This document shows, piece after piece, positions 18,287 through 22,681 of a stretch of 32,550 nucleotides of DNA (position 1 is the first letter of the stretch; each line of letters begins with the position of its first letter). The stretch covers positions 1 through 32,550 of the forward strand of contig PLOH01000070.1 in assembly GCA_003142955.1 (NCBI GenBank), in the 5' to 3' direction. A program made the translations under genes and the position numbers. The stretch comes from Opitutia bacterium (GTDB taxonomy: Bacteria > Verrucomicrobiota > Verrucomicrobiia > Opitutales > Opitutaceae). A model generated the notes under the pieces. That model was not told where the DNA came from. It ran no database searches and worked only from the letters and a program-made list of their open reading frames with translations.

Positions 18287-19543
18287 ATGCAATTCGATCC
18301 TAACCACAACGAGCTTCCACTCACCCACGAAATCCTCACCGACCGGTCGATCGCCATCAAGTTGGTCGGCGTGGGCGGCGCGGGCTCGAACGCCATCGAC
18401 CGGCTCAAGATGGACAACCTGGAGCGGTTGCAGCTCGCCGTCATCAACACTGATCTGCAGGCATTGTCCTCCTCCCCGGTGCAGGACAAGATTCTGATTG
18501 GTGGTCAGTTGACCCGGGGGCTCGGCACGGGTGGCGAACCGGAGTTGGGCCGTCAGGCGGCCGAGGCCGACCGGGATAAGATCGCCGCGGTGGTGAAAGG
18601 ATGCGATCTCGTGTTCCTGCTGGCCGGGTTGGGTGGCGGCACCGGCGGCGGCGCCACTCCCATTGTCGCCGAGGTGGCGACCGAGCAGGGAGCGCTGGTC
18701 ATCGCCTTTGTCACGATGCCCTTCAGCTTCGAAGGCGGCCGGCGGTTGAAACAGGCGGAGGAAGGCTTGACGGCTTTGCGCCGCGCCTGTGATGCGGTGA
18801 TTCCGCTCTCCAACGATGTGCTGCTGCAGGAGTGCAGCGACAGTACCGGGGTCCTGGCGGCGTTTGCCCAGGCGGACGCGTGGATTGGCCGCGGCGTGAA
18901 ATCGATCTGGTCGATGCTGTTCCGCACCGGTCTGATCAACCTCGATTTTGCCACCCTGCAACAGGTGTTTCAGTCGCGGGGCGGCAAGACGCTGTTCAGC
19001 CTCGGCAGCGGCGAGGGCCCGCAGGCGGTGGCCCAGGCCATCGAAAGCATCAAGCTCTGTCCCTTGCTGCATCCGACGGAGTACTCCCGCAAGGCGGACC
19101 GCCTGCTCGTTAATATCATTGGCGGCACCGATCTCACGCTGCCGATGGTGAACGAGCTCATGACCGCGATCACCGGGCAATACGGCCGGGATTCGCATGT
19201 CATTATGGGCGCGGTGATCGATGAGGGCATGCAGCAGCGGCTGGAGGTCTGTGTGATTGGCACGACGGATGTGGGCAACCGCAGCCAGACGCCTTGGCGC
19301 CCGCGGAACGCCGGCCGCCTGGCCGCCCCCGCCCGGGCCGTGAACGAAAAACCTGCCAGCGCCGCGGCAGGGCCGGTGGCTGTGCCCGATCCGGTGTCAG
19401 CGGCCCGAGCCGAGCAGAACGAATTCTCATTTTCAGAGGTGGAGAGCCGGGGCCACTTCGACAAGACCGACCGGAATCTCTTCGAGGGGCAGGATCTCGA
19501 CGTTCCGACCTACCTGCGCAAGGGAATCAAGATCGCGGTGTAG
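18287..19543 (+). CDS. ftsZ: cell division GTPase FtsZ with altered T7 loop
   Basis: FtsZ is the tubulin-like GTPase of the division ring. The 418-aa protein shows KLVGVGGAGSNAIDRL, NTDLQAL, the tubulin signature LGGGTGGGATPI, VTMPFSFEG, and the C-terminal conserved peptide DLDVPTYLRKG that binds FtsA. The T7 loop reads GLINLDFATLQQVF at about 215-228. The first catalytic aspartate is present (Asp220), but the second, in the family motif NxDFAD, is Thr223. A variable linker rich in Ala and Pro (about 345-400) precedes the C-terminal peptide. It is the last gene of the dcw run, followed by a repeat array and no clear terminator. Confidence 0.96.
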   Translation: MQFDPNHNELPLTHEILTDRSIAIKLVGVGGAGSNAIDRLKMDNLERLQLAVINTDLQALSSSPVQDKILIGGQLTRGLGTGGEPELGRQAAEADRDKIAAVVKGCDLVFLLAGLGGGTGGGATPIVAEVATEQGALVIAFVTMPFSFEGGRRLKQAEEGLTALRRACDAVIPLSNDVLLQECSDSTGVLAAFAQADAWIGRGVKSIWSMLFRTGLINLDFATLQQVFQSRGGKTLFSLGSGEGPQAVAQAIESIKLCPLLHPTEYSRKADRLLVNIIGGTDLTLPMVNELMTAITGQYGRDSHVIMGAVIDEGMQQRLEVCVIGTTDVGNRSQTPWRPRNAGRLAAPARAVNEKPASAAAGPVAVPDPVSAARAEQNEFSFSEVESRGHFDKTDRNLFEGQDLDVPTYLRKGIKIAV

Positions 19544-19618: not shown

Positions 19619-20498
19619 ACCCTTTCAGTATTTGGAGGGCGGCGCGCTGTCGCCGCCTGATTCCCCGCCATTTGCCTCCGATCGGGTGGCGGCCAGCGCC
19701 TATCCAAGATCGGTTCTGGAACGTAGCGCAGGCTTCCTGCCTGCCTGGCGGACGTGGTCAAATCCGTAGCCGCGAGCGCCAGCGAGTGGATCGGTGGCAA
19801 ATCGAGAAGGCAAGAAGTCGGGAAACGATCGCCCCGCCTTCGGTGCCTTAGCTTCGCTGGTTTTTGTCGTTATGGCCGCGGGCCTCCGGGCGCCGCTTTT
19901 CGGGTCACTTTTCTCACGTATCGTCTTCATTGTTAGATGATCGCGAGATTATCGATGCTCCGCTAAACGACTGGTGATTGGGTTTTTCGATCCGTGGTTA
20001 TGCCGCAGGTTTTCGTCCCGGCGAGGCTTCTTTCTCCTCCTCGACGAGTTCCCGACCACCACCGTTCTAGCCAAAAAAAACGCCCCTCCATCGAATCAGT
20101 TCTGGCGTCGCTTGCTCCGATTTAGCGCGACCGGGTGAAGAAAGAACCTCTCCCAAATATCGCAGCAGCTAAATCCTATGGAAACAAACTGCTCGCAGCA
20201 TTCCTCCGCGACGCCACCGGCCCGGCTGGAACCTCCGGTTGCTTAGGCCGGCGAAACCGTCTCGGCCGATGTTCTCAAGAGGCGACACCACGGGCGGTCA
20301 AGAACCGTCCGGAAATGTAAAACGTGCAGGTTTTCGTAGGGGCGATTTTGCCGACTCCTGCCGGCCGCCGATTCCCGGCTTGATTTCCAAGATATTTTCA
20401 AACAACAATATCCAGTGCGCGCGATGCAACCAACGGCCCCGTAAAAGGGTTCCGAGCCGATTTGGATATAACACAACCTCTCCGCGCTATATTACACT
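19619..20498. other. gene-poor spacer with repeat fragments
   Basis: I see no convincing gene here. At 19631-19665 lies a GC-rich motif (TTTGGAGGGCGGCGCGCTGT and onward) that recurs with a few changes at 31434-31470. At about 19732-19744 GCAGGCTTCCTGC forms a small hairpin. At 19800-19823 three more octamer-phased units of the post-ftsZ repeat appear (AATCGAGA, AGGCAAGA, AGTCGGGA). From about 19900 the DNA is richer in A/T than the flanking genes. Short ORFs in the stretch lack motifs and good starts. Confidence 0.6.
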
Positions 20499-20520
20499 GT
20501 TGGGCCAAGAAAGAACCAGC

Positions 20521-20554
20521 TTGACATACGTACGCTTAACCGTACGCTCACGGT
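20521..20554 (+). promoter_or_regulatory. yefM promoter and likely YefM operator
   Basis: TTGACA at 20521-20526 is a perfect -35 box. The -10 box is unclear; TACGCT at 20543-20548 is a weak candidate at 16-bp spacing. Two direct copies of CGTACGCT at 20529-20536 and 20541-20548 (12-bp period), each containing the palindrome CGTACG, overlap the presumed promoter just before the antitoxin ATG. YefM antitoxins autoregulate through short palindromes here, so this is a plausible operator (inferred). Confidence 0.6.
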
Positions 20555-20797
20555 ATGACATCCATTCCCGTCACCCAAGCTCGTTCCAGGCTCTATCAGC
20601 TTGTCGACGACACCGCCGCTTCCCACGTCCCCGTCCAGATTACCGGCAAGCGCAGCAATGCGGTTTTGGTGGCCGAAGACGATTGGCGGAGCATTCAGGA
20701 GACGCTCTACCTTCTGTCGATTCCTGGAATGCGCGAATCCATTCGGAAGGGATTGAGGGAACCGTTGGGGAGAGCCAAGACTGAAATCGCCTGGTGA
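20555..20797 (+). CDS. yefM: antitoxin of YefM/Phd family
   Basis: YefM binds and neutralises the YoeB toxin and represses the operon. The 80-aa product starts MTSIPVTQARSRLYQLVDD, the typical Phd/YefM DNA-binding N-terminus, continues with VPVQITGKRSNAVLVAEDDWRSIQETLYLLSIPGM, the family core, and ends in the toxin-binding tail. Length fits the family (75-90 aa). The stop overlaps the toxin start by four bases (GTGA), as usual for this pair. It is followed by yoeB and then an attC-like element, which suggests carriage on an integron cassette. Confidence 0.93.
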   Translation: MTSIPVTQARSRLYQLVDDTAASHVPVQITGKRSNAVLVAEDDWRSIQETLYLLSIPGMRESIRKGLREPLGRAKTEIAW

Positions 20798-21057
20798 CCT
20801 GGCAGTTCTATTACACCAAGCAAGCCCTGAAGGACGCCAAGAAGCTGGCGTCCAGCAATCTTCGGCCCCAAGCAGAACGCCTGCTTGAGATTCTGAAGAA
20901 GGATCCGTTTCAAAGCCCGCCAGCATATGAGAAGTTGGTCGGAGATCTCGATGGCGCGTGGTCTCGCCGGATCAATATCCAGCACCGACTCGTGTATCAG
21001 ATCTACCCAGAGAAACGGGCGGTGAAGATTATTCGGATGTGGACTCATTACGAATGA
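20794..21057 (+). CDS. yoeB: YoeB-family mRNA interferase toxin
   Basis: YoeB is a ribosome-dependent RNase of the RelE superfamily that cuts mRNA in the A site. The 87-aa product has the family opening WQFYYTKQALKDAKKL, then LLEILKKDPFQSPPAYEKLVGDLDGAWSRRINIQHRLVYQI and ends IIRMWTHYE. The C-terminal His-Tyr pair and the arginine in SRRIN are the catalytic positions of the family. Start is GTG 20794, overlapping the yefM stop. It appears intact. An attC-like element begins four bases after the stop. Confidence 0.94.
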   Translation: MTWQFYYTKQALKDAKKLASSNLRPQAERLLEILKKDPFQSPPAYEKLVGDLDGAWSRRINIQHRLVYQIYPEKRAVKIIRMWTHYE

Positions 21058-21061
21058 ATAG

Positions 21062-21160
21062 GCCCAACCAGCCATCGCTGCCAATTCGGCAGTCGGTCAC
21101 GCCTCGTGCATGCGCACGAGTCGCGCCCGCCAGCCTCATGGCAGGCTGGTAGCGTTGGGC
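21062..21160 (+). other. attC-like integron recombination site
   Basis: A 99-bp element begins with GCCCAAC (21062-21068, fits RYYYAAC) and ends with GTTGGGC (21154-21160, fits GTTRRRY), which are the R'' and R' boxes of integron attC sites. Inside, CTGCCA (21078-21083) pairs with TGGCAG (21139-21144). A perfect central hairpin CTCGTGC/GCACGAG lies at about 21102-21119. All three pairs are centred on about 21110-21112. It lies between two toxin-antitoxin modules, a usual place for attC. The spacing of nine bases between box pairs is wider than in classical sites, and no integrase gene is in the window. Confidence 0.62.
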
Positions 21161-21190
21161 TTGAAATACGCCAGCAATACGCCATATTTA
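21161..21190 (+). promoter_or_regulatory. possible brnTA promoter with direct repeat
   Basis: TTGAAA at 21161-21166 could be a -35 box, with a weak -10 (CATATT at 21183-21188, 16-bp spacing). Two copies of AATACGCCA at 21165-21173 and 21176-21184 (11-bp period) overlap it and could be the BrnA operator. The repeat is seen; function is inferred. Confidence 0.4.
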
Positions 21191-21196
21191 TGATCG

Positions 21197-21365
21197 ATGA
21201 GTAATCTCTCGTTTGAATGGGATTCCAAAAAGGCGGCATCAAATGCCGCCAAACATGGCGTTCGTGGTGCACTGCCTGCGGAAGCAAGGCTCGATGATCC
21301 GGATTATCTCAGCTCGGCGGGCTGGCACGAAGGAGAAACAACCATATCTAGCGAGGCTACCATGA
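21197..21365 (+). pseudogene. brnT: brnT toxin remnant, internal deletion plus frameshift
   Basis: BrnT is a RelE-like RNase of about 90 aa. Here its start is intact (ATG 21197; FEWDSKKAASNAAKHGV is the family N-terminus). After that the reading frame no longer matches. The family C-terminus is readable in the +1 frame from about 21258: FVVHCLRKQGSMIRIISARR, then AGTKEKQPYLARLP, ending at TGA 21363-21365. This overlaps the brnA ATG by three bases, as in functional pairs. So roughly 35-40 codons between HGV and VVH were lost with a frame change. In the original frame the DNA reads straight through into brnA as a chimera. The toxin is almost certainly dead. Confidence 0.8.
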
Positions 21366-21586
21366 GATCAGAATACGACTTCTCGAAAGCAAAGAAGAAC
21401 CCTTATGCGAAGCGGCTTAAGAAGACCGTCACCATCCGGTTGGAGGACGAGATCATCAGTTACTTCAAGGCGATGTCTGCCGATACAGGGGTTCCTTACC
21501 AAAACCTGATCAATCTTTATCTCAGGGATTGTGCGCAGACCCAGAAGCGCCTCTCGCTAGATTGGCGGCCGCACAAGGTGGCGTGA
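21362..21586 (+). CDS. brnA: BrnA antitoxin (ribbon-helix-helix)
   Basis: BrnA neutralises BrnT and binds the operon promoter as a dimer. The 74-aa product starts MRSEYDFSKAKKNPYAKRL and contains KKTVTIRLEDEIISYFKAM, the ribbon-helix-helix core of BrnA/CopG proteins, followed by GVPYQNLINLYLRDC. ATG 21362 has GCGAGG shortly upstream. The frame also continues from the brnT start because of the deletion there, so a chimeric longer protein is possible. The antitoxin is intact next to a broken toxin, making it an orphan that might still regulate or protect against related toxins. Confidence 0.87.
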   Translation: MRSEYDFSKAKKNPYAKRLKKTVTIRLEDEIISYFKAMSADTGVPYQNLINLYLRDCAQTQKRLSLDWRPHKVA

Positions 21587-21618
21587 GATGATGAAGAATT
21601 TGCCCAACCCAGAAGGGT

Positions 21619-21796
21619 GATCCGACGGGGGGCGATCCGACGGGGTCATGTGTGAATTCTCGACAAGGGGATAACGTCCGGAATCTCGCGCACATTTTTT
21701 GACGGATGTAGTTCGGAGGAGGCGGGACGATCCGAAGGGGTCCGGATTCCCCCTCGAGCGGTCTTGTCGAGAATTTACACATGACCCCATCGGATC
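21619..21796. mobile_element. 163-bp element with 34-bp inverted ends (MITE-like)
   Basis: Positions 21634-21667 and 21763-21796 are inverted copies of 34 bases differing at only two sites; each end reads GATCCGAYGGGGTCATGTGT inward. About 95 bases lie between and encode nothing. A direct extra copy of GATCCGACGGGG precedes the left end at 21619-21630 (15-bp period), and GATCCGAAGGGG recurs inside at about 21729. Size and structure suggest a non-autonomous transposable element or a very large hairpin. The family is unknown. It follows a GCCCAAC heptamer at 21602-21608 that could be the start of a second attC site. Confidence 0.75.
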
Positions 21797-21876
21797 TGCC
21801 CTTCCCATGGTGACCACGGCAACCGCCCAGGGGGTCCGTCAAATTCGGGAGGACGCGTTGCCTGCCAGGCGAAGAA

Positions 21877-22252: not shown

Positions 22253-22681
22253 ATGTCCTATCATCGTTCCATCCTCGCCTTCGTTCTCGCGGCCGCCATC
22301 GCGGCCCCGCTCGCCCTTCGCGCCGATGACACTCATGTGAAAGGTCCGGGCCCCGCCCACATCTCCGGGGGTGAAAAAGTTGACGTCACGAATTACCTGG
22401 TGCCCGGGAAAACCACCATCGTCGATTTTTTCAGCGAGTATTGCCCGCCGTGCCGCGCGATTGCGCCGAAGCTGGAAAAGCTGCACAAGACCCGGGACGA
22501 CATCGCGGTCGTCAAGGTCGACATCAACCGGCCCGGGGTGAAGGGCATCGATTGGCAGTCCCCGGTGGCCCAGCAGTACCAATTGCATTCGATCCCTCAC
22601 TTCCAGATCTACAGTCCGGATGGGAAACTCAAGGCGGAGGGCGATGCGGCTTACGATCAGGTAAGCAGCTGGGTGGAATAG
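22253..22681 (+). CDS. exported thioredoxin-family protein
   Basis: The 142-aa product has a signal peptide (MSYHRSILAFVLAAAIAAPL, likely cleaved after ALRA near residue 24) and a thioredoxin fold with the redox motif CPPC at residues 64-67 and the cis-proline stretch SIPHFQIYSPDGK. It is expected to act on disulfides outside the cytoplasm. The WCGPC of cytoplasmic thioredoxin is replaced by YCPPC, so substrate range cannot be told. GGAG at 22242-22245 is a good ribosome binding site. It converges on hflX with only seven bases between stops. Confidence 0.88.
   Translation: MSYHRSILAFVLAAAIAAPLALRADDTHVKGPGPAHISGGEKVDVTNYLVPGKTTIVDFFSEYCPPCRAIAPKLEKLHKTRDDIAVVKVDINRPGVKGIDWQSPVAQQYQLHSIPHFQIYSPDGKLKAEGDAAYDQVSSWVE

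Follow-up and report, generated by a model that had tools for sequence, protein, structure and literature searches.

The contig PLOH01000070.1 of Opitutia bacterium (assembly GCA_003142955.1), a stretch of 32,550 nucleotides hereafter called the window, carries two toxin-antitoxin modules separated by a palindromic element of 99 bp. The question raised by this locus is whether the element is an integron attC site and whether the neighbouring modules are cassettes left behind by an integron. An earlier note, made from the DNA letters alone, had proposed 'relic integron cassettes', and was right in substance. The region 19814-21608 most probably represents the remains of a chromosomal integron located between ftsZ and a thioredoxin gene. 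The features of the locus are collected in Table 1.

Table 1. Position and supporting evidence of the features at the integron remnant and its borders (positions are those of the window).
Feature	Position	Strand	Evidence
ftsZ, left neighbour, end of division/cell-wall cluster	18287-19543	+	Pfam Tubulin, FtsZ_C
5' stub of intI, start codon and ~39 codons, remainder deleted	~19814-19930	-	tblastn, collinearity with G003
intI leader and attI region	19931-20498	+	homology to G003:C168; 20379-20498 best conserved
GTTGGGC, junction of attI and first cassette, cut point G/TT	20499-20505	+	cassette homology begins, attI homology ends
yefM antitoxin, cassette 1	20555-20797	+	Pfam PhdYeFM_antitox 1.4e-17
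yoeB toxin, cassette 1	20794-21057	+	Pfam YoeB_toxin 9.4e-12; TIGR02116 94.5 bits
attC site between the two cassettes	21062-21160	+	R1 match with exact ends; covariation; bottom-strand fold
attC boxes	R'' 21062-21068; L'' ~21074-21082; L' ~21140-21147; R' 21154-21160		
brnT 5' remnant, 22 codons, then internal deletion of ~124 bp	21197-21262	+	intact copies elsewhere
brnA antitoxin, 74 aa, intact	21362-21586	+	Pfam BrnA_antitoxin, CopG_antitoxin above cut-off
GCCCAAC, R'' box of cassette 2 attC, remainder missing	21602-21608	+	position after brnA, where attC is expected
~182-bp repeat with terminal inverted repeats	21615-21796	+	copies elsewhere in the same genome
Thioredoxin-fold gene, right neighbour	22253-22681	+	Pfam Thioredoxin 1e-12

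The motifs on which the integron proposal had been built, namely the 99-bp element, GTTGGGC at 20499-20505 and GCCCAAC at 21602-21608, were all found at the correct coordinates. The outer boxes of the element, GCCCAAC and GTTGGGC, fit the pattern RYYYAAC/GTTRRRY and are complementary at seven of seven positions. When the window was randomised 200 times under a first-order Markov model, perfectly complementary pairs of this pattern lying 45-140 nt apart occurred at 0.08 per window, and none of them reached a fold as stable as -36.6 kcal/mol, the value obtained for the bottom strand of the element (z -6.5 against shuffles). The top strand is less stable (-29.0 kcal/mol, z -4.0). The pairing of the boxes is thus more than chance. 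An Rfam scan of the window gave no match.

In attC sites, R and L boxes are accompanied by unpaired bases on the R''-L'' arm, and a conserved extrahelical G sets the strand choice (PMC2727003). The consensus structure of the family of sites described below displays an R stem of 7 bp, spacers of 5 and 6 nt and L stems of 3+5 bp; on the R''-L'' arm, position 16 is left unpaired on its own and positions 22-23 together. The site of the window fits this structure with one mismatch among the eight L pairs. The inner paired segments that had been compared with attC are borne out: the L boxes are present, as are a central spacer without pairing and the unpaired R''-L'' bases. The base at position 16 is a candidate for the extrahelical base that sets the strand choice. 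The box spacing had been called wider than classical, which does not hold: 5 and 6 unpaired nucleotides between R and L are ordinary. Reading the site by eye had suggested 9 nt on either side, a value given up in favour of the consensus structure.

A search that demanded perfect pairing of the R boxes overlooked most real sites, and a covariance model (R1) was used instead. R1 was trained on 13 attC sites from arrays adjoining integrase genes in four relatives (G194, G249, G085 and G135), leaving out the genome under study; it is specific to the lineage (Opitutaceae, judged by the named matches) and is not the published general attC model. R1 gave a single match in the window, at 21062-21160, with exact ends, a score of 65.8 bits and an E-value of 5.6e-15 for the 649 kb searched. 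A search of this kind had been suggested as a check, and with the lineage-specific model it met the site to the base. The element is a genuine integron attC site.

On its left lies the yefM-yoeB module, of which both genes are complete (the cut-off of TIGR02116 is 51.8). Homologous yefM-yoeB cassettes were found in two relatives, at G001:C362 (94%) and G382:C253 (74%). Both alignments begin exactly at 20499, and the DNA further left in these relatives is unrelated to the window. The left borders of the relatives' cassettes fall precisely at G/TTGGGC, as the cassette reading would predict. By these alignments, the GTTGGGC at 20499 is to be regarded as a real cassette boundary and, with a real attC at the other end, the proposed yefM-yoeB cassette from 20499 to 21160 stands. 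An array of G194 that runs up to an intact intI includes yefM-yoeB (60-64% protein identity) as a cassette flanked by attC sites on both sides. In G287, G394 and G316, no more than about 10 bases separate the stop codon of yoeB from the start of an attC. Such homologous cassettes and attC contexts in several relatives indicate that yefM-yoeB is a circulating cassette in Opitutaceae. No relative was found with an otherwise identical site missing one cassette; G003, a congener, lacks the entire 2.7 kb. Among plasmids, the cassette had a single weak match, which came from a Halomonas record.

The sequence to the left of the boundary is what distinguishes an integron remnant from loose cassettes, as both an attI region and a stub of intI are found there. 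The segments 19973-20041 (75%) and 20309-20501 (73%) match G003:C168 collinearly (best E 1.8e-27); in the congener, the matching DNA separates the integrase gene start from the first cassette junction. The homology stops at 20501, i.e. at GTT. From this comparison, the region 19931-20498 appears to include attI, located next to intI. A promoter scan detected no consensus promoter in attI.

The last ~125 bp of attI were found in further copies in the same genome (C57:88629-88754, minus strand, 85%) and in the congener (G003:C93:9737-9866, minus strand, 79%). Both copies stop at the GTT core, beyond which each has a different cassette. These two units have no integrase gene, their left borders lie at about the same position, and each carries a single cassette with a degenerate or weak attC. 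With the window, attI is thus present at three loci that are unrelated to each other, lack an intact intI and have differing cassettes; a fourth locus, G003:C168, carries a frameshifted intI. On this basis it may be, although it is unlikely, that a unit of ~125 bp of attI with one or two cassettes spreads through the chromosome without an integrase gene in this genus.

The intI stub was recognised with the N-terminus of the G003 integrase, which gave E 1.65e-8 by tblastn in 1.2 kb of the window (alignment 19814-20017, including the leader). The stub runs collinear with the DNA of G003, the offset staying the same throughout and the two start codons coinciding, and blocks of 40 nt reach up to 70% identity, the 99% random limit being 42.5%. 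The stub alone gave no Pfam match, and integrases of more distant relatives failed to detect it, so that the call depends on a single congener, in which intI is itself frameshifted (two reading frames at C168 ~50053-51322, minus strand, with an integrase family match). As the intI of G003 is split, its decay may be common in the genus; intact copies are known in other genera. The earlier note had stated that no integrase is in the window. This is true of a functional intI and overlooks the 5' stub and the attI region that were kept. No integrase above the TIGR02249 cut-off was detected in the assembly of the organism (94% complete, 158 contigs), and present mobility can therefore not be claimed; contig breaks at repeated cassettes may conceal an intact integron in this genome. 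To the left of the stub, where the homology ends, a dispersed 25-bp repeat (GTAGCCGCGAGCGCCAGCGAGTGGA) is located at 19766-19790, with an identical copy on contig C50 of the same genome and nearly identical ones in G001 and G382.

These left-end features bear on another origin of the locus, by which an integrase acting in trans would have inserted the cassettes off-target into an attG-like G/TT site of a chromosome that never held an integron platform here. Such insertion is a recognised origin of integrase-less attC clusters (PMC8618304), no attC is found ahead of cassette 1, and the same genome holds other attC clusters without integrase. It would leave unexplained, however, why 20309-20501 and 19973-20041 are homologous to the attI side of the intI locus in G003, where the start codon of intI also falls in register, and why the attI sequence left of 20499 recurs beside other cassettes. 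This origin is accordingly considered very improbable compared with the decay of a resident integron.

The attC site of the window belongs to an abundant family. In the same genome, R1 detected 19 sites, clustered on contigs C63, C148, C119 and C20; these clusters are without integrase. A DNA search of this genome showed three nearly complete further copies of the element (87-92%) as well as fragments, and among the 57 genomes searched, 11 had matches, the genome itself counted. R1 arrays were found in many relatives, one of them in G009 with more than 12 sites beginning near an integrase. The attC arrays expected in the genome and its relatives are thus plentiful. A scan with the inner core across named genomes returned 25 stretches, nearly all in Opitutaceae or other Opitutia, and integron integrases above the curated cut-off were detected in 50 of the 223 genomes of the order.

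Covariation was analysed on 61 distinct sites outside the R1 training set. In the alignment, 85.8% of the cells pair, and changes on both sides were counted in 320 cells, against 110 in shuffles. The pairing drops to 27-37% when the partner is slid (27-29% for a slide by one base). The alignment was fitted to R1 and is thus biased toward the structure; the contrast is very large nonetheless. Although the several 87-92% identical copies and the strong hairpin potential of the palindrome could suggest a REP/MITE-type intergenic repeat or a transcription terminator with a coincidental match to the attC boxes, this reading is refuted for practical purposes by the R1 matches and the covariation of paired positions, by copies lying at the 3' ends of different ORFs and in head-to-tail arrays, some beside intI, and by a search of the + strand that found no terminator-like site.

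To the right of the attC site, the second cassette of the integron remnant is damaged at two places. Copies of brnT-brnA on contig C57 of the same genome and at G001:C404 are continuous with the window except for ~124 extra bp at position 21262. From the C57 copy, a BrnT of full length (Pfam 3e-28) is predicted, along with the same BrnA protein as in the window. The window BrnT has just 22 N-terminal residues in common with the intact copy and is not a complete toxin. The element had been said to precede brnTA; brnA is indeed intact, while of brnT only a stump is left. The second attC ends 6 bp past its R'' box, where an element of ~182 bp starts. Copies of this element were found at C55:52839-53020 (98%) and C119:3620-3805 (95%) of the same genome, and internal inverted matches at 21630-21667 and 21763-21801. 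It is likely a miniature transposable element, and its recurrence elsewhere in the genome supports the earlier suggestion that the second attC was cut by a later insertion. The element (GATCCGACGGGGTCATGTGT...) is non-coding.

A different interruption was observed in the intact brnT-brnA cassette on C57 (6279-6900), where the attC is broken directly after TTTGCCGAATC. The interrupting sequence resembles the reversed 3' end of the group II intron that is found on contig C137, with the same junction as there, and this apparent group IIC intron end lies at the place equivalent to 21602-21608 of the window. Contig C137 carries at ~572-2506 a group II intron with a reverse transcriptase/maturase (TIGR04416, 373 bits; Rfam group-II-D1D4), adjoining an attC-like site at 478-579. 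The association of group IIC-attC introns with attC is known (PMC7923331).

In the congener G003, ftsZ lies directly beside the thioredoxin gene and the intervening 2.7 kb of the window are absent. From this comparison, the 2.7 kb would have been either gained here or lost in G003. A homologue of the gene that adjoins intI in G003 is located on contig C50 of the studied genome, without integron or attC, which indicates that the two species carry the integron at different sites.

The following history is proposed for the locus. IntI would once have inserted circular cassettes at attI, cutting attC as a folded bottom strand, at the G/TT point of R', and joining it to attI, as is inferred from established integron biology. 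Each linear cassette would thus begin with TT(GGGC) and end with its own attC, and the remaining order would be yefM-yoeB with its complete attC (21062-21160) followed by brnT-brnA. Later losses would have removed intI except for ~39 codons, ~124 bp of brnT and the second attC from 6 bp past R''. The sequence comparisons show that the site is an attC, where the cassettes begin and end, that attI has homologues, and that intI, brnT and the second attC are broken. The remaining attC could probably still be cut if IntI were supplied, and yefM-yoeB, with both genes intact, may still work as an addiction module keeping the remnant in place.

Integrons have been reported from Verrucomicrobiota (PMC8618304). 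The locus shares with chromosomal (sedentary) integrons the attI, the G/TT junction, the toxin-antitoxin cassettes and an attC with R and L boxes. It differs from them in that intI is reduced to a 5' stub, where a complete integron has a functional intI, and that one complete and one truncated attC are left. With CALIN, i.e. attC clusters lacking an integron integrase, it has in common the attC-bearing cassettes and the lack of a functional integrase; among the origins proposed for CALIN is the loss of intI (PMC8618304; PMC9024848). IntegronFinder 2.0 by default requires at least two attC sites for CALIN (PMC9024848), and the locus, where a single attC is complete and a second is reduced to its R'' box, stays below this number; the clusters on other contigs of the genome hold two or more sites. 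In contrast to CALIN, attI and the intI stub were kept here, which makes the route of formation visible. Few functions are commoner in cassettes than toxin-antitoxin systems (PMC8618304) and, like those of superintegrons, the present one is a two-gene cassette in cassette orientation; the second module differs by having lost its toxin. Cassettes of the Delta-attI type in mobile integrons likewise have attI away from an intact intI, but there an attI fragment stands in place of attC, downstream of the gene (PMC12901181), whereas here attI is upstream of the first cassette.

The locus offers a base-level view of the decay of an integron into loose cassettes, in which the 5' end of intI, attI and an intact toxin-antitoxin cassette with its attC persist. 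The analysis further records an attC type of ~99 bp that is family-wide in Opitutaceae, outside the well-studied Proteobacteria, and R1 can be used for locating more attC sites of this family. Working versions of the integron are common in Opitutaceae, and the copy in the window is a degraded one.
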